A stretch of 46,257 nucleotides of DNA from NCBI GenBank assembly GCA_018238375.1, contig JABCTJ010000064.1, positions 1-46,257 of the forward strand. The letters are read 5' to 3'. Positions within the stretch are counted from its first letter, which is position 1, and the number at the start of each line of letters is the position of its first letter. The stretch comes from Candidatus Thorarchaeota archaeon (GTDB lineage Archaea > Asgardarchaeota > Thorarchaeia > Thorarchaeales > Thorarchaeaceae). Below, piece after piece: positions 31,861 through 40,991 of the stretch. The notes under the pieces are model-generated. The model did not search any database and was not told the DNA's origin. It was given only the letters and a program-made list of their open reading frames with translations. Position numbers and translations under genes: made by a program.

Positions 31861-32307
31861 TTAATCCACTATGGGTTTTTGCACCGCTACCGTTCGACCG
31901 ATAATCGCAAAAATCGCTCCTATCCAACCAAGTGATTGACCCACCTGATGCATTAGATCCATTGCTAAAGTGCCTACCATCACAAGCTGGGCTAGATTAA
32001 GTACTAATCCCAGAACCCCCATTCCTGTAAACAGAGCCACAAGTATCCTACCCATGTATACTCTTCTTGTCGTTAAAATAATGCCGCTTGCAATGATTCC
32101 CATTCCGCCGAGTCCCGTTAGCAAGACCAACATACCTGTTACGATTTCAACAGTCATTATAGCTGTTGGGTCCATGGCATCACCGTTGCTTAGAAGGTGT
32201 TCTCCCAAAAGCTGGATTGTCCCACTTATTCCTGCAAGCATCATTAAAATGCCGCCCACCAAACAGAGGAGGAAGGCATCGCTATTGTGTACATCTTTTG
32301 TCTTCAA
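31861..32307 (-). CDS. Small four-TM membrane protein
   Basis: Four hydrophobic segments; no recognisable family motif. Confidence 0.6.
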   Translation of the reverse strand: MKTKDVHNSDAFLLCLVGGILMMLAGISGTIQLLGEHLLSNGDAMDPTAIMTVEIVTGMLVLLTGLGGMGIIASGIILTTRRVYMGRILVALFTGMGVLGLVLNLAQLVMVGTLAMDLMHQVGQSLGWIGAIFAIIGRTVAVQKPIVD

Positions 32308-32372: not shown

Positions 32373-33431
32373 CTAGGCTTTTACCTCCTTTTCATATGGT
32401 ACCGCGATGCCTTTCGGAGGCACTGACTTACGGATTCCAGCAAGAGCGAGCACCACTAAAACGAATGGTATCATCTGAAGGAACTGACTGTAACTCTGAA
32501 CCCATTCCCAAGCAGGCACGAAGCCTACGAAGAATTGCAGTGTGTCTAGGAATCCAAAGAGTAAGCCAGCTGCGAGTACGCCGAAAGGAGACCAGTTACC
32601 GAATATCAATGCAGCAAGAGCAATGAACCCTCTGCCCGTAGTCATCTGTTTTCCGAAGGCGGGGAGTCCGAAACCGATGCTTATGTAGGCACCAGCAAGG
32701 CCAGCGAGGAACCCGCTGATTACAACACCAATGAATCGATACTTCTCAACACTAACTCCTGCTGCGTCAAGTGTGCTTGGATCCTCTCCAGCTGCTCGCA
32801 GTCTAAGACCGAACGGAGTGCGATACATCACGTACCAGCTGACTATAACCAACACGAAGGTAAAATACACAACAGGTGATAAATTATCGAACGCAACGCC
32901 AATGATGGGGATATCCTGCAAGAAAGGCATACTTACCTTTGGGAGTTCAGTGACCTGCTCTGACATACCCTTCCGATTCCAGATGACTTCCAGCATCAGG
33001 GTCGTGAACCCAGCTGCGAAAAGTATTATCCCCGTTCCGCTAACGATATGATTTCCTTTCATCTTTACACTGATGATCGCGTGGACTGCAGCAAGTACTC
33101 CACCTGCTAAAACCGCAGCAAGAAGTCCAATCCAGGGGTCGTAGAAAAAGTAGGTGGCCGCAACAGCAGCAAACGCTCCAATAAGCATCATCCCTTCCAA
33201 GCCTATGTTGACGACACCCGACTTTTCAGAAAACATTCCTCCCAGTGCAGCTAGGATGAGTGGGGTTGCGGACTGCAGAGTGGCCTCCAGAAGCCAACCT
33301 GTAAGTGCGTAGAACGTGTCAACATCATCGAGTGCATCATAGGTCAGTTTCAGGAGTATTGTGATTGACGCCAGAAGGACCACAGGCATAATTATTTCCC
33401 TTCGGAGGAAACGTTTCATGGAGGATTCCAT
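32373..33431 (-). CDS. BMP/nucleoside-type ABC transporter permease (NupQ/YufQ-like)
   Basis: SEKSGVVNIGLEGMMLIGAF; GLRLRAAGEDPSTLDAAGVSVEKYR. Confidence 0.9.
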   Translation of the reverse strand: MESSMKRFLRREIIMPVVLLASITILLKLTYDALDDVDTFYALTGWLLEATLQSATPLILAALGGMFSEKSGVVNIGLEGMMLIGAFAAVAATYFFYDPWIGLLAAVLAGGVLAAVHAIISVKMKGNHIVSGTGIILFAAGFTTLMLEVIWNRKGMSEQVTELPKVSMPFLQDIPIIGVAFDNLSPVVYFTFVLVIVSWYVMYRTPFGLRLRAAGEDPSTLDAAGVSVEKYRFIGVVISGFLAGLAGAYISIGFGLPAFGKQMTTGRGFIALAALIFGNWSPFGVLAAGLLFGFLDTLQFFVGFVPAWEWVQSYSQFLQMIPFVLVVLALAGIRKSVPPKGIAVPYEKEVKA

Positions 33432-35002
33432 CAGGCACCGCCTCCCTTAGATTGACCAACGCCTTTCATTAGCAATAGTGATAACACTGACAAGACAGCT
33501 TGCACTAAGCCAACCAGAATTATGAAACCAATATTGATGCCAGCTCCCATTCCGATCACAGCTAATGCAAACCAACACATTGACACAACGAGAGAAACGA
33601 TGAGCCCTCGCGAGTTTCTTGCAAGTATCAAGAGGAATGCAGCAATGCTTAGAATGCTCACTACCGCAGAGATGCCAATGAACGTCAACCCAAGCTGAGT
33701 TTCACTCAGCATGCTGAAACTGAAGTAGGCTCCGTAGAGGGCCATAACCATATTAAGTGCGAATACGATTGGTTGGATTGGTCGCGCTTTCTCGGCGCTA
33801 AACCATTTTCCGTAATCTAATGATTGATCTGCCATCCACTGTATGAAACGTGGAGCCGCTACAAAAAGCACAACAAGGCCTTGCATCACACCTACCATCT
33901 CAATCGGCACATGAGCTTGTTGATGCATAGCATTTCCTCCAGCTCTTAAAAAGCCAAAGAAAATCGCAGCCAACAAACAACCAAACGGATTGTTGTTACC
34001 TAACACAGCAACTGTGATTCCGTCGAATCCCAGACCCGGAGACCACCCGTCGTAGAAGCGATGAAGGTTGCCCTGAACCTCAGATGCTCCTGCAAGCCCA
34101 GCGAGGCCGCCGCCAATAGCCAGCGACAAGGCCACGTTCTTTTTCGTATTAATTCCTGCGGTTTCAGCTGCCGCTTCATTTAATCCAACAGCCCTCATTT
34201 CGTAACCCATCACAGTGCGATTCAGAATGAATGCTACAACGAAAACACAGATGATTGCCACGAGGAAACCTGCATGAAGGTAGTTACCCCATATATTTTG
34301 CAGTTCAGCCGTTTCAAGAATTCGTGTTGTTTGGGCATTCCACTGGTACTCGCCGGGTTCTTTCAGCGGCCCAGCGGCCAACCACTGGCAGAACAGAATC
34401 GCAGTGTAGCTCAACATCATTGTCGTAACTACCTCGTGCGCGCCTCTGTAAGCCTTGAGCAGCCCTGGAAGGAATCCCCATAATGCTCCTGCAAGAGCGC
34501 CTGATGCAAGACACACTAAGGGGTGAACCCCGTACGGAAGTGGGATTATGTACCCCAATATCGCGGCGGCCATAGAGCCCATGTAGAGCTGACCTTCGGC
34601 GCCAATATTGAACAAACCACTTTTGAAGACGAAAGCCACAGATAATCCTGTGAGTATCAATGGCGTCGAAAAGAAGAGGACCCTGTCGAATTGCCTTGAC
34701 GCTCCAATGATGAGCGCACTGAAAGCATCATACGAATTATAGCCAGAGAGCTCCATAATAGCAGCACTTGTGATGGCCGCCAGAATAACCGAGAAGAGCG
34801 CCCAGATCACTGGCTTCCAGAAGTTCCAAGTCAGTAGTTTCGCGACTGCGACTATGATTGCCTTGATTGGACGAGGTGCTTCCTCTGCAGTATTAACTAG
34901 TTTGATGCGTATCTGCTCTACGTCGGCCTGAATTCGTGATAGCAGGCCTATTTGAGTTTCATCAGATGGCTCTCGGGTATCTTGCTGACGATTTTCGCTC
35001 AA
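33431..35002 (-). CDS. BMP/nucleoside-type ABC transporter permease (NupP/YufP-like) with C-terminal multi-TM extension
   Basis: FKSGLFNIGAEGQLYMG; MRAVGLNEAAAETAGI; extra hydrophobic helices after APRFIQWM. Confidence 0.9.
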   Translation of the reverse strand: MSENRQQDTREPSDETQIGLLSRIQADVEQIRIKLVNTAEEAPRPIKAIIVAVAKLLTWNFWKPVIWALFSVILAAITSAAIMELSGYNSYDAFSALIIGASRQFDRVLFFSTPLILTGLSVAFVFKSGLFNIGAEGQLYMGSMAAAILGYIIPLPYGVHPLVCLASGALAGALWGFLPGLLKAYRGAHEVVTTMMLSYTAILFCQWLAAGPLKEPGEYQWNAQTTRILETAELQNIWGNYLHAGFLVAIICVFVVAFILNRTVMGYEMRAVGLNEAAAETAGINTKKNVALSLAIGGGLAGLAGASEVQGNLHRFYDGWSPGLGFDGITVAVLGNNNPFGCLLAAIFFGFLRAGGNAMHQQAHVPIEMVGVMQGLVVLFVAAPRFIQWMADQSLDYGKWFSAEKARPIQPIVFALNMVMALYGAYFSFSMLSETQLGLTFIGISAVVSILSIAAFLLILARNSRGLIVSLVVSMCWFALAVIGMGAGINIGFIILVGLVQAVLSVLSLLLMKGVGQSKGGGA

Positions 35003-36765
35003 TTGATTGCCTCCATTTGCTCTTCTCCATCTAAATGTCCTGCCATGAGCAGCCCAAGCTCTTGAGCATCCGTTTCATCTGGCATCTTCTCTCCCACTAC
35101 TCGTCCGTCAAACATGATCAGGATGCGATCAGCAACAGACCTTATCTCGTCCAGTTCGGCAGAAACAAGTAGAATAGCAACTCCCTGATCCCGCATCGAA
35201 ATCAAGGTCTTATGGATGAATTCTGTGGCACCAACATCCAGCCCTCTTGTGGGCTGAGCAGCAATCAATAGCTTCGGACTTGATTCCAGTTCCCTAGCTA
35301 CAATAAGCTTCTGCTGATTGCCGCCGGAAAGAGTGCTGGCAAAACTATCAACTCCCGTTGTCTTTATTGAGTAATTCTCCACAAGTTCACTGGAAATACT
35401 TCCGAACGTATCCAATGCCAAAATACCTGGCATAGAAATGAAGGGTGGTCTGTAGTGCCGTCCCAGTATAAGGTTCTCCCCCACGGTAAATGGTAAAATC
35501 AGACCTCTACGGTGACGATCTTCAGGAATATGACTAACTCCAGCTTCTCGCACAAACCGGGGATTCTTGCCTGTTGTATGGATATCACCTACGAATACTG
35601 TTCCGCCCGAGGGCTTTCGAAGGCCAACCAACGCTTCAATAAGCTCAGTCTGGCCATTGCCCTCCACGCCAGCTATTCCAAGTATTTCACCAGCACGGAC
35701 TTGGAAGGAAACACCTCTGACTTTCGACAGTCCTCGATGGTCTTCAACTTCCAATTCATCCACATTGAGAACAATCTCTCCCGGAGTTGCAGGAGGTTTC
35801 TCAACAGTGAAGACAACAGGGCGGCCAACCATCATCTGCGCAAGCTCGCTGGCTGAAGTTTCATCTTTGTTGACGGTTCCTACGAGGGCTCCATCTCGAA
35901 GGACGCTAATCCTGTCGCATAGCGCCATAGGTTCACGGAGCTTGTGAGTGATTAATATGATAGTCTTGCCGCTCTTCCTGAAGGTTTCCAAAGTCACGAA
36001 TAACTCATCAACCTCTTGCGGTGTGAGTACGCTGGTTGGTTCATCAAGAATTAAGATATCTGCCTCACGGTATAGAGTCTTAATCACCTCAACACGCTGC
36101 TGAAGTCCCACTGAGAGGTCTTGAACCTTAGCGTACGGATCAACTGTAAGTCCATTCTCATCTGCAATCCGCTGAATTCTCTTAGCGGCATCATCAAAAC
36201 CAAGAGGTAGAACATCGCCTCCTAATCTTCCAAGCATTCCTCCGAATCGTGCCAGAGTCGCAGAGTTTCCGATTCCTTGAATCGGTCTAATTAGCACCGT
36301 AAGAAAAATTAGGAGTACTGCAGCGCTGAATAGAAATTCAACAAGAGGGAGAAAGAAGTACATGAGAAAGAGCACCAATAGAAACGCCGAAATCATAGCA
36401 AGGGAGTTATCTCGGTCTGGTTTCTTTGAAGCTGGCTCAAGCCCTAGAATCACATTCTCAGTTACCGTTAGTGGAGGAATAAGCTTGAAGTGCTGGTGAA
36501 CCATACCCACACCACGGTCGATGGTGTCCTGTGGCGACTTTGGCTCGACTTCTTCACCTCTAATGATTATGCGTCCTGAGTCCTTTGAAAGAAACCCATA
36601 CAAGATATTCATGATGGTGCTTTTGCCCGCTCCATTTTCCCCTAGCAGACCATGGACTTCGCCCTCGCGGATTCTGAGAGTGATGTCCTTGTTTGCTTGG
36701 ATTCCCCCGGGAAACGTCTTGTTTATCCCGATAAGCTCAACAGCGTACCTGCCTTCTTGTTCCAT
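34999..36765 (-). CDS. BMP/nucleoside-type ABC transporter ATPase (two NBDs) with hydrophobic insertion in NBD1
   Basis: GENGAGKSTIMNILYG, LSVGLQQRVEVIKTLYR, ILDEPTSVLTPQE; LSGGNQQKLIVARELE; hydrophobic stretch AMISAFLLVLFLMYFFLPLVEFLFSAAVLLIFLTVLI. Confidence 0.9.
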   Translation of the reverse strand: MEQEGRYAVELIGINKTFPGGIQANKDITLRIREGEVHGLLGENGAGKSTIMNILYGFLSKDSGRIIIRGEEVEPKSPQDTIDRGVGMVHQHFKLIPPLTVTENVILGLEPASKKPDRDNSLAMISAFLLVLFLMYFFLPLVEFLFSAAVLLIFLTVLIRPIQGIGNSATLARFGGMLGRLGGDVLPLGFDDAAKRIQRIADENGLTVDPYAKVQDLSVGLQQRVEVIKTLYREADILILDEPTSVLTPQEVDELFVTLETFRKSGKTIILITHKLREPMALCDRISVLRDGALVGTVNKDETSASELAQMMVGRPVVFTVEKPPATPGEIVLNVDELEVEDHRGLSKVRGVSFQVRAGEILGIAGVEGNGQTELIEALVGLRKPSGGTVFVGDIHTTGKNPRFVREAGVSHIPEDRHRRGLILPFTVGENLILGRHYRPPFISMPGILALDTFGSISSELVENYSIKTTGVDSFASTLSGGNQQKLIVARELESSPKLLIAAQPTRGLDVGATEFIHKTLISMRDQGVAILLVSAELDEIRSVADRILIMFDGRVVGEKMPDETDAQELGLLMAGHLDGEEQMEAIN

Positions 36766-36884: not shown

Positions 36885-36905
36885 AGAGAGGCGTTATGCC
36901 TCTCT
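36885..36905 (-). terminator. Stem-loop AGAGAGGC(N5)GCCTCTCT followed by T-rich tract on - strand
   Basis: 8-bp perfect arms; - strand continues TTCTTCCTTTTTATT; lies between the BMP gene and the ATPase gene. Confidence 0.6.
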
Positions 36906-36918
36906 AGATATTCGTAAA

Positions 36919-38016
36919 TTATGTCCAGTAGATCTCATCTGGGACGACGACGGTGCCGGCTATGATGGCAGCCTTGAGAGTATTGATCTCAGTTATGATG
37001 GCAGGGGCGATCACTAGGAGATCCTCATTGATCTCGTAGTCAATGCCACCGTTGGATAGACTGAAGAACATTAGACCTCCAGTGTATGTGTCATCAACGA
37101 CCTGTTCAATTACGTTGTAGACTGCAACATCAACTCTCTTCAGCATCGATGTCATGACCAGTGTTGGAGCCACAGGATATTCCGGATCCACGCAACCAAG
37201 GTACATCTGTGGACTGTCGACACCAATCGCCCAAGTACGGTAAGCGTGAGAAATATTGTTCGCCTTCGCACTGGCAATGACTCCGAGACCAGACCGCCCT
37301 GCAGCTGCGAATATCACGTCCGTTCCTGCAGCATACATTCCGTTCGCCAGAGTCTGACCCAAGCCTGGGTCAGCCCAATGGCCCACGTAAGCGATTGTGT
37401 GGTTGATGCCTTCGTTTGTGTAGTTTGCACCAAATACGTATCCAGCTGCAAACTTGTTAATCAACGGGATGTCCATTCCACCAACGAAACCGACCATGTT
37501 TGTGTCAGTCATCAGTCCAGCCATCGCACCGACTAAGGCTGAGCCCTCATGCTCATTGAAGAGCAAGGACGTAACGTTTGGATAAGTCGCTGGGTCAATG
37601 TACATGTCAACAATAGCCATGTATTGGTTTGGATAATCCTCAGCAACTGCCATCACCGCATCTGCTTGATCAAAGCCAATGCTAATGATGAGGTCATAGG
37701 GTTCGTCATAATCGGTATGCTCCGCATATGAACGAAGGTATCCCTCGTATTCCGTTATTGATGTTGGCTCAACATACGTATAGTTGATGCTAAGCTCTGT
37801 TACGGCATCATCCGCTCCCTGCTTACAGCCGTCATTAAACGACTTGTCACCGAGACCACCTGTGGCGAATACAATGGCAACATCGTATGGATTTTCCACA
37901 AATTCGTCTGGCGGCGGAGCGAATGGATCGTATATTATTATATAGGCCCCAACTGCACCAATTCCGATTATTACAATCAGAATGCCAGCAATCAAGCCTT
38001 TATTTTGAAAACTCAT
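36919..38016 (-). CDS. BMP-family (PnrA/Med-like) substrate-binding protein, N-terminally anchored
   Basis: VAIVFATGGLGDKSFNDGCKQGADDA; DVIFAAAGRSGLGVI. Confidence 0.9.
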   Translation of the reverse strand: MSFQNKGLIAGILIVIIGIGAVGAYIIIYDPFAPPPDEFVENPYDVAIVFATGGLGDKSFNDGCKQGADDAVTELSINYTYVEPTSITEYEGYLRSYAEHTDYDEPYDLIISIGFDQADAVMAVAEDYPNQYMAIVDMYIDPATYPNVTSLLFNEHEGSALVGAMAGLMTDTNMVGFVGGMDIPLINKFAAGYVFGANYTNEGINHTIAYVGHWADPGLGQTLANGMYAAGTDVIFAAAGRSGLGVIASAKANNISHAYRTWAIGVDSPQMYLGCVDPEYPVAPTLVMTSMLKRVDVAVYNVIEQVVDDTYTGGLMFFSLSNGGIDYEINEDLLVIAPAIITEINTLKAAIIAGTVVVPDEIYWT

Positions 38017-39419: not shown

Positions 39420-40991
39420 TCAGATCCAATCAATCCCATCACCTTCAATGAGCATACCAAGTGCCATTGGCAGGATTGCTGAGCTCGAGAGTGCCACCTT
39501 CGCAGTCGGCTTAATGTGATATGGCAAATCCAATCCTTGCAATGCTGGACATGAGAAGAGTGGGCTAAGATCAAGAGATTCGAACCTGTTAGCGGATATG
39601 TCAAGGATTGTTAGATTCTCGCATTTTGAAAGCGGCACCAGGTCTATTCGCTTTAGGTTATTACCAGAGAGCGATAGAATCTCAAGGCTTGAGCAGTATG
39701 CAAGAGGACCTAGGTTAACCCTTTCAAAGCTGTTTCCATTTAGAAACAGCTTCTCTAAACCTGTCAGCTTCGCAAGAGGGCTGAGACCAATTTCAGTAAG
39801 ATGATTGCCATCAAGACGCAATGTTTCTAGTTTTCGACATCTTTTCAACGGGTCCAAATCAATCTTGGTGATTCGATTGCTACTTATGTCAAGTTCATGC
39901 ATTTCTCGACAATTCGTTATGGGTTCCAAATCTATAGCATTTAGCTCATTGCCATCAATGCTTAGTCGCTCAAGTTCAGGGCAAGCTGCTAAAGCCGCGA
40001 GATTGATAGTGGCCAGCTTGTTTTTGAACAGAGTTAGAGATTTCAGATGAGAGCATCCTCTTAATGCTGCTAAGTTAATGGATTGGAGTAGGTTATTACT
40101 CAGATGGAGATATAGCAGCTCCGTGCATTTGTTCATAGGACTAAGGTCGACTTCAACTAACCTGTTGTCGGCTAGGTTGAGTTCAACAAGTTTGGAGCAC
40201 CCGCTTAGAGGAACGAGATCAATCTTTGCTAGCGCGTTTACATCCAGACGTACTATTGCCAGACGTTTGCTTGCACCCATCGGACTGAGATCGATTGATG
40301 CTAGCCTATTGCTATGAAGCAGAAGACTCTCCAGATACGTGCTTTTCTCCAACGGTCTGAGATTGACTCCCGTTAGTTGATTCATCGACAAATCAAGTAC
40401 AGTCAAGTCTGACCAATTAGCAACAGGCCTCAAATCGATGAAGGCCAAATTATTGATATTCAGGAAAAACTTTGTTAGGTTAAGGCACCCGGCAAGTGGC
40501 CAAAGGGGCACGTCTGTGAGTTGATTTCCATCCAAGTCTATTCGCTTCAATTTTGAACAATGCGACAAAGGTTCGAGTTTTATTTCATTGATAATATTTG
40601 AAGAAAGGTCGATGATTTCAAGTCGGGGGCACTTCGAAAGGGAAGCCAGGTCTATTGTGCTTAGATTATTGGCTTCGAGGTCCACGCTTCGAAGATCTGG
40701 ACAAGAAGACAAGGGTGCGAGGCTTATGGTTGCTAGGCTGTTATTGTCAAGGTCGAGCGCCTGTAGCTGAGTGCATTGAGCTAGAGGTGATAGGTCCAAT
40801 GAAGTCAAGTGATTCGCTCTAATAACGAGGGTCTTTAGATTTTTCAGCTTGGCTATGGGTGTTAGGTCGATGCGCGATATTTTCCTAGAGGAGAGGTCGA
40901 TTGTACCTGTTTCTTCAGGAACGCTCGCACCCTTCTGTTCTCCATGAATGTCAGTCCAGATAATCTCAACTGTCATAACGCAAATCCCCAC
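39420..40991 (-). CDS. Leucine-rich-repeat protein, about 18 repeats of 24 aa
   Basis: Consensus PLxxCxxLxxLDLxxNxLxxIDLx repeated through almost the whole ORF; no signal peptide. Confidence 0.9.
   Translation of the reverse strand: MGICVMTVEIIWTDIHGEQKGASVPEETGTIDLSSRKISRIDLTPIAKLKNLKTLVIRANHLTSLDLSPLAQCTQLQALDLDNNSLATISLAPLSSCPDLRSVDLEANNLSTIDLASLSKCPRLEIIDLSSNIINEIKLEPLSHCSKLKRIDLDGNQLTDVPLWPLAGCLNLTKFFLNINNLAFIDLRPVANWSDLTVLDLSMNQLTGVNLRPLEKSTYLESLLLHSNRLASIDLSPMGASKRLAIVRLDVNALAKIDLVPLSGCSKLVELNLADNRLVEVDLSPMNKCTELLYLHLSNNLLQSINLAALRGCSHLKSLTLFKNKLATINLAALAACPELERLSIDGNELNAIDLEPITNCREMHELDISSNRITKIDLDPLKRCRKLETLRLDGNHLTEIGLSPLAKLTGLEKLFLNGNSFERVNLGPLAYCSSLEILSLSGNNLKRIDLVPLSKCENLTILDISANRFESLDLSPLFSCPALQGLDLPYHIKPTAKVALSSSAILPMALGMLIEGDGIDWI

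Follow-up and report, generated by a model that had tools for sequence, protein, structure and literature searches.

A predicted transmembrane hairpin inside the first nucleotide-binding domain of a NupO/YufO-like ABC transporter ATPase from Thorarchaeia

In the textbook picture of an ABC importer, the nucleotide-binding domains (NBDs) are soluble and come to the membrane only when they dock on a permease. Large insertions do occur in ABC ATPase folds, as in SMC/Rad50, UvrA and the regulatory insertion of CFTR, but these are soluble coiled coils or domains and not membrane hairpins. The fused-NBD ATPases DppD/OppD were among the best PDB fold matches of the ATPase studied here (8wdb_D, TM-scores of 0.65 by query length and 0.73 by target length), and we know of no internal transmembrane (TM) hairpin in them. 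UvrA, with its large insertion in the ABC ATPase fold, and EttA/ABCF were also matched. In EttA, NBD1 is interrupted by a helical Arm domain (residues 94-136 in MtbEttA; PMC8782954). This soluble element contacts the L1 stalk of the ribosome and belongs to a protein without permeases, whereas the insert described below is of TM grade. The closest described systems are the bacterial NupO/YufO-type ATPases, which likewise have a double NBD, the same motifs and an operon with a Bmp protein and two BPD_transp_2 permeases; the homologues that we aligned are 45-51% identical to the archaeal protein. Nucleoside ABC systems are listed in a 2021 survey of Asgard transporters (PMC7997004), and a term search of its text gave no mention of a hairpin-bearing NBD.

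The window analysed here is the whole 46,257 nucleotides of contig JABCTJ010000064.1 (positions 1 to 46,257, forward strand; assembly GCA_018238375.1), from a Thorarchaeia MAG of 2.5 Mb in 282 contigs. Its features are given in Table 1. The binding-protein gene lies upstream of the ATPase gene and the two BPD_transp_2 permease genes downstream, an order conserved in relatives. PF00005 matched two stretches of the ATPase, so that two NBDs are present in one chain, and their motifs were conserved in a 60-sequence alignment. Family profiles, motifs and operon agreed on the NupO/YufO-like identity proposed in the initial annotation. Judged by these signatures the ATPase belongs to the NupO/YufO-like ABC importer family, and the gene set is that of a NupNOPQ/YufNOPQ-type putative nucleoside importer. 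The models for a putative vitamin B6 ABC transporter (NF047927-NF047930) were rejected, since all four proteins scored well below the curated cut-offs (424 bits against 670 for the ATPase, 61 against 400 for the binding protein, and 156 against 400 and 185 against 465 for the permeases). An ABCF identity, soluble and ribosome-acting, was ruled out by the binding-protein and permease genes that adjoin the ATPase gene. Some other features of the neighbourhood were recorded. A terminator-like stem, seen as a consensus match only, follows the binding-protein gene and precedes the ATPase gene (36885-36905) and could lower downstream expression. A 148-aa predicted membrane protein is encoded downstream of permease 2 (31861-32307) and is syntenic in many related operons at 39-89% identity. 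Farther away, at 39420-40991, lies a 523-aa protein made almost entirely of leucine-rich-repeat-like units (pattern L.PL..C..L..L.L..N.L..I.L).

Table 1. Features of the transporter locus and of the ATPase insert, in window coordinates.
Feature	Coordinates	Strand	Basis
NupO/YufO-like double-NBD ABC ATPase, 588 aa	34999..36765	-	translated ORF and profile matches
Bmp/PnrA-like substrate-binding protein	36919..38016	-	PF02608, 199.8 bits
Permease 1 (BPD_transp_2) with extra C-terminal TM region	33431..35002	-	PF02653 on residues 106-381 of 523; hydropathy
Permease 2 (BPD_transp_2)	32373..33431	-	PF02653
NBD1 Walker A, GENGAGKST, residues 42-50	36616..36642	-	sequence; conserved in alignment
Insert in NBD1, residues 112-190, between Q-loop segment and signature	36196..36432	-	alignment with hairpin-free orthologues
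Predicted TM helix 1, residues 118-138	36352..36414	-	AF2; hydropathy
Predicted TM helix 2, residues 141-159	36289..36345	-	AF2; hydropathy
Returning linker, residues 160-190, with short helix 170-181 and PLGF exit motif at its end	36196..36288	-	AF2 pLDDT <50 for 162-186
NBD1 signature, LSVGLQQ, residues 217-223, family-typical variant	36097..36117	-	sequence; conserved in alignment
NBD1 Walker B, ILILDE, residues 237-242	36040..36057	-	sequence; conserved in alignment

The translated ATPase runs from ENVILGLEP into ASKKPDRDNSLAMISAFLLVLFLMYFFLPLVEFLFSAAVLLIFLTVLIRPIQGIGNSATLARFGGMLGRLGGDVLPLGF, then DDAAKRIQRIADENGL, and on to LSVGLQQR. The initial annotation had placed an in-frame membrane-helix insertion at 36196-36432, and its borders were exact: translation and orthologue alignment both returned residues 112-190, that is, 79 residues between ENVILGLEP and DDAAKRI. 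The distance from the Q-loop (HQHF) to the signature (LSVGLQQ) is 134 aa in the window ATPase, against 63-65 aa and no TM helix in 64 bacterial homologues with automatically placed motifs, a count that omits about a dozen homologues whose motif pattern was not matched, two of them with a long soluble insertion. Hairpin-free orthologues from Thorarchaeia and Hermodarchaea, about 60-69% identical and with the same operon order, have 78-104 aa here without a TM-grade helix. The alignment with NupO/YufO-like ATPases thus bore out the annotation, and the membrane-helix insertion within the ABC ATPase domain was confirmed as real. A long, charged, soluble insertion was found at the identical NBD1 site in two Bacilli MAGs from horse faeces (L041 and L042), apparently independent of the archaeal hairpins; the site therefore tolerates insertions.

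The ATP-site motifs had been described as intact around the insert. This was accurate for NBD1 Walker A and Walker B, and the switch His is intact as well, but the signature is intact in the family sense only, since NBD1 has LSVGLQQ, like the other family members, and it is NBD2 that has the canonical LSGGN. NBD2 keeps LSGGNQQ and, in common with the family, is without GKST and has AAQP where DEP is expected. Because of the NBD1 signature variant and the absence of GKST and DEP from NBD2, we take the single consensus ATP site to be that formed by NBD1 Walker A and Walker B with the NBD2 signature.

One to two strongly hydrophobic helices had been anticipated in the insert, and hydropathy and AF2 both gave two of TM grade. 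On the octanol scale, two 19-residue windows of the insert favoured membrane insertion by 17.5 and 6.5 kcal/mol, and windows chosen jointly for the hairpin by 17.3 and 12.0 kcal/mol, energies comparable to those of the permease helices of the same operon. On this scale no TM-grade stretch was found in the hairpin-free orthologues of Thorarchaeia and Hermodarchaea, with a maximum of 3.2 kcal/mol anywhere in the ATPase frame. AF2, run on a 60-sequence alignment with the single ATPase chain and neither permeases nor membrane, predicted two helices, 21 and 19 residues long, with a tight turn between them (pLDDT about 79-94; mean for the model 87.8), flanked by linkers with pLDDT <50 (residues 112-117 and 162-186). 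The insert is thus predicted to be a TM hairpin, with two adjacent TM-grade helices, a short turn and cytosolic flanks. The helix after the hairpin is also weakly TM-like in several relatives, and hydropathy alone leaves an odd helix number possible. In every hairpin form the loop between the helices has at most 8 residues and no K/R, and the returning flank has more K/R than D/E in 10 of the 10 two-helix forms, a pattern which fits the positive-inside rule with both ends cytosolic. The even helix numbers found (two, four, and two more) fit the need for both NBD halves to be inside. Both halves of NBD1 could stay in the cytosol, given even helix numbers, an outer loop free of positive charge and intact consensus ATP-site motifs.

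The hairpin was found at the identical NBD1 site in 12 Thorarchaeia genomes of four genus groups. Besides the window genome these are G042, G044, G046, G045 and G041 in g1, G002 and G003 in g2, G016 in g8, and G019, G024 and G028 in g9; the absence from homologues that would have spoken against the annotation was thus not seen in these 11 other genomes. Within g1 the hairpin is kept in every readable orthologue and is enlarged in two. In these two (G045 and G041) the NBD1 insert extends to 179 residues and includes four hydrophobic helices. Their NBD2 is longer by about 65 residues, which are hydrophobic, stand before PRFVREAG and form a second hairpin (L124:6176-8266(-) and L125:1787-3877(-), residues about 449-513, before PRFVREAGVSHIPEDR). 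AF2 placed four helices in the NBD1 insert of the enlarged forms and two in NBD2, at moderate confidence. Another 18 Thorarchaeia genomes have a readable orthologue that lacks the hairpin, and many close orthologues operate without it in the same operon type.

In the NBD segments covered here, hairpins were not a widespread trait of these genomes. Among the 31 Walker A-to-signature segments read in the window genome, none held another hairpin and the other long segments were soluble, and among the PF00005 matches listed for five relatives only three hairpin orthologues exceeded 500 nt. In a phylum-wide search the open frames of most other Asgard matches left little room for a hairpin, with a few long frames outside this reading. 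Two Opp/Dpp-type ATPases of one genome (L185 and L188, on contigs C84 and C185 of G000) have Walker A and signature separated by long charged insertions, and that of L188 has the unusual signature FSMGEDQ.

To follow the constraint on the insert, the window gene was compared with its genus relatives in substitution rates. In these comparisons dN/dS was 0.21-0.27 over the insert and 0.08-0.14 over the remainder of the protein. For the hairpin proper it was mostly 0.13-0.30 (0.13-0.28 for the window gene against genus relatives), and across all pairs the whole-insert values reached 0.45, several dS values being near saturation. The nonsynonymous rate of the insert was about five times that of the rest of the protein in most pairs, as expected if only hydrophobicity matters. 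Recurring in 12 genomes, and with a hydrophobicity that outlasts the replacement of 21 of its 43 residues, the hairpin is more than a product of chance; such retention was reached by 32 of 1000 neutral simulations in one direction and by 0 of 1000 in the other. The constraint on the NBD2 hairpin is weaker (dN/dS 0.69, from the two 697-aa sequences).

With the insert removed, the ATPase tree had three hairpin groups and a single origin was not rejected (AU p 0.19), whereas with the concatenated operon a single clade of hairpin forms was rejected (p 0.0016; 0.025 when L126 is left out). A strict single origin is thus tolerated by the ATPase only. In L126 (G024) the ATPase groups with the hairpin forms and the permeases with the hairpin-free L140, each conflict at p about 0.05, hinting at possible recombination or transfer within the operon. 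Since these placements conflict and are each borderline, gain, loss and gene exchange are inseparable here. The exit motif (PLGF and variants) has Gly in all hairpin forms and D, N or S in hairpin-free orthologues, which hints at common descent or at a shared structural need; as proof of a single origin it was set aside, being suggestive only and perhaps structurally forced. We put forward tentatively, and with more doubt than belief, that this ABC ATPase of Thorarchaeia repeatedly gained hairpins (two helices in NBD1, later four, with a further two in the NBD2 of two relatives) and is turning into an integral membrane protein, in which the hairpins may let the motor respond to the membrane or remain attached without relying on the permeases.

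We infer membrane insertion, the topology above and a tethering role for the hairpin. The reading that we favour, at a probability of roughly 0.5, is that the hairpin is mainly a membrane tether for the ATPase of this Bmp/NupNOPQ-type importer. The TM hairpin would be inserted after the NBD1 Q-loop segment, in the permease-contacting region; the chain would exit the cytosol, span the membrane twice and return, leaving both NBD1 halves cytosolic and the ATP-site residues untouched. Through flexible linkers the hairpin would hold the motor at the membrane beside the permeases, and could favour assembly or retention without rigid coupling. In FtsE, the cavity that takes up the coupling helix of the permease owes its shape to the regions equivalent to the insert site (PMC7468199). 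A hairpin at this insertion point could plausibly reach the bilayer, and its position between Q-loop and signature, where the permease is contacted, makes a tether or a coupling role geometrically reasonable. Tethering is preferred to tight coupling because the linkers are of low confidence and the sequence drifts fast with its hydrophobicity kept.

The main rival, possible but clearly less probable, is that the hairpin is an accessory helix pair which docks specifically on a permease, for example on the C-terminal TM region of permease 1, in coupling or regulation. The site lies near the docking place of the coupling helices, and permease 1 has extra C-terminal TM helices on which such a pair could rest, yet the permease 1 extension and the permease TM counts are equal in operons with and without the hairpin, and the fast sequence drift and low-confidence linkers also fit poorly with a specific contact. 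The equal counts likewise make the hairpin no obvious substitute for a missing permease helix, and this candidate was rejected. The extension itself adds ~130 residues and some four TM helices past the BPD_transp_2 domain (window 33431-35002 and orthologues in L121-L149) and is general across Thorarchaeia and Hermodarchaea operons, hairpin present or absent.

We consider it unlikely that the hairpin is a tolerated, near-neutral addition, absorbed by the membrane and hydrophobic merely to avoid misfolding, with no benefit of its own. The patchy distribution, the constraint relaxed relative to the core and most of all in NBD2, and the soluble insertions elsewhere at the same site are what such an addition would leave, but retention in every readable g1 orthologue, enlargement in two of these and purifying selection on the NBD1 insert argue against it. 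It is more doubtful still that the hairpin does not span the bilayer and is interfacial, re-entrant or buried in a protein-protein contact: the very short turn and the following amphipathic segment might allow this, hydropathy alone being indecisive, but the two stretches are as hydrophobic as permease helices, their predicted lengths are 21 and 19 residues and their charge pattern is that of a TM hairpin. An artefact of assembly or gene calling can practically be discarded, for although the source MAG is fragmented, an in-frame hairpin stands at the same site in 11 other genomes, one of which has its orthologue, of 94% identity, on a 258-kb contig, and purifying selection extends across it.

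The family is known, and the architecture, a predicted TM hairpin inside an NBD, is new for a known transporter. Such an NBD was not found among the fold matches or in the literature (open access, narrow phrasing), nor was the layout found in any other transporter motor examined. If an NBD does have membrane helices of its own, the stretch from Q-loop to signature can accommodate a TM hairpin while the ATP-site residues stay intact. The relatives provide a natural series, with none, two or four helices in NBD1 and a further pair in NBD2, in which the contribution of NBD docking to assembly and turnover could be studied. The finding would also add an example of a soluble protein turned membrane protein in archaea related to eukaryotes.
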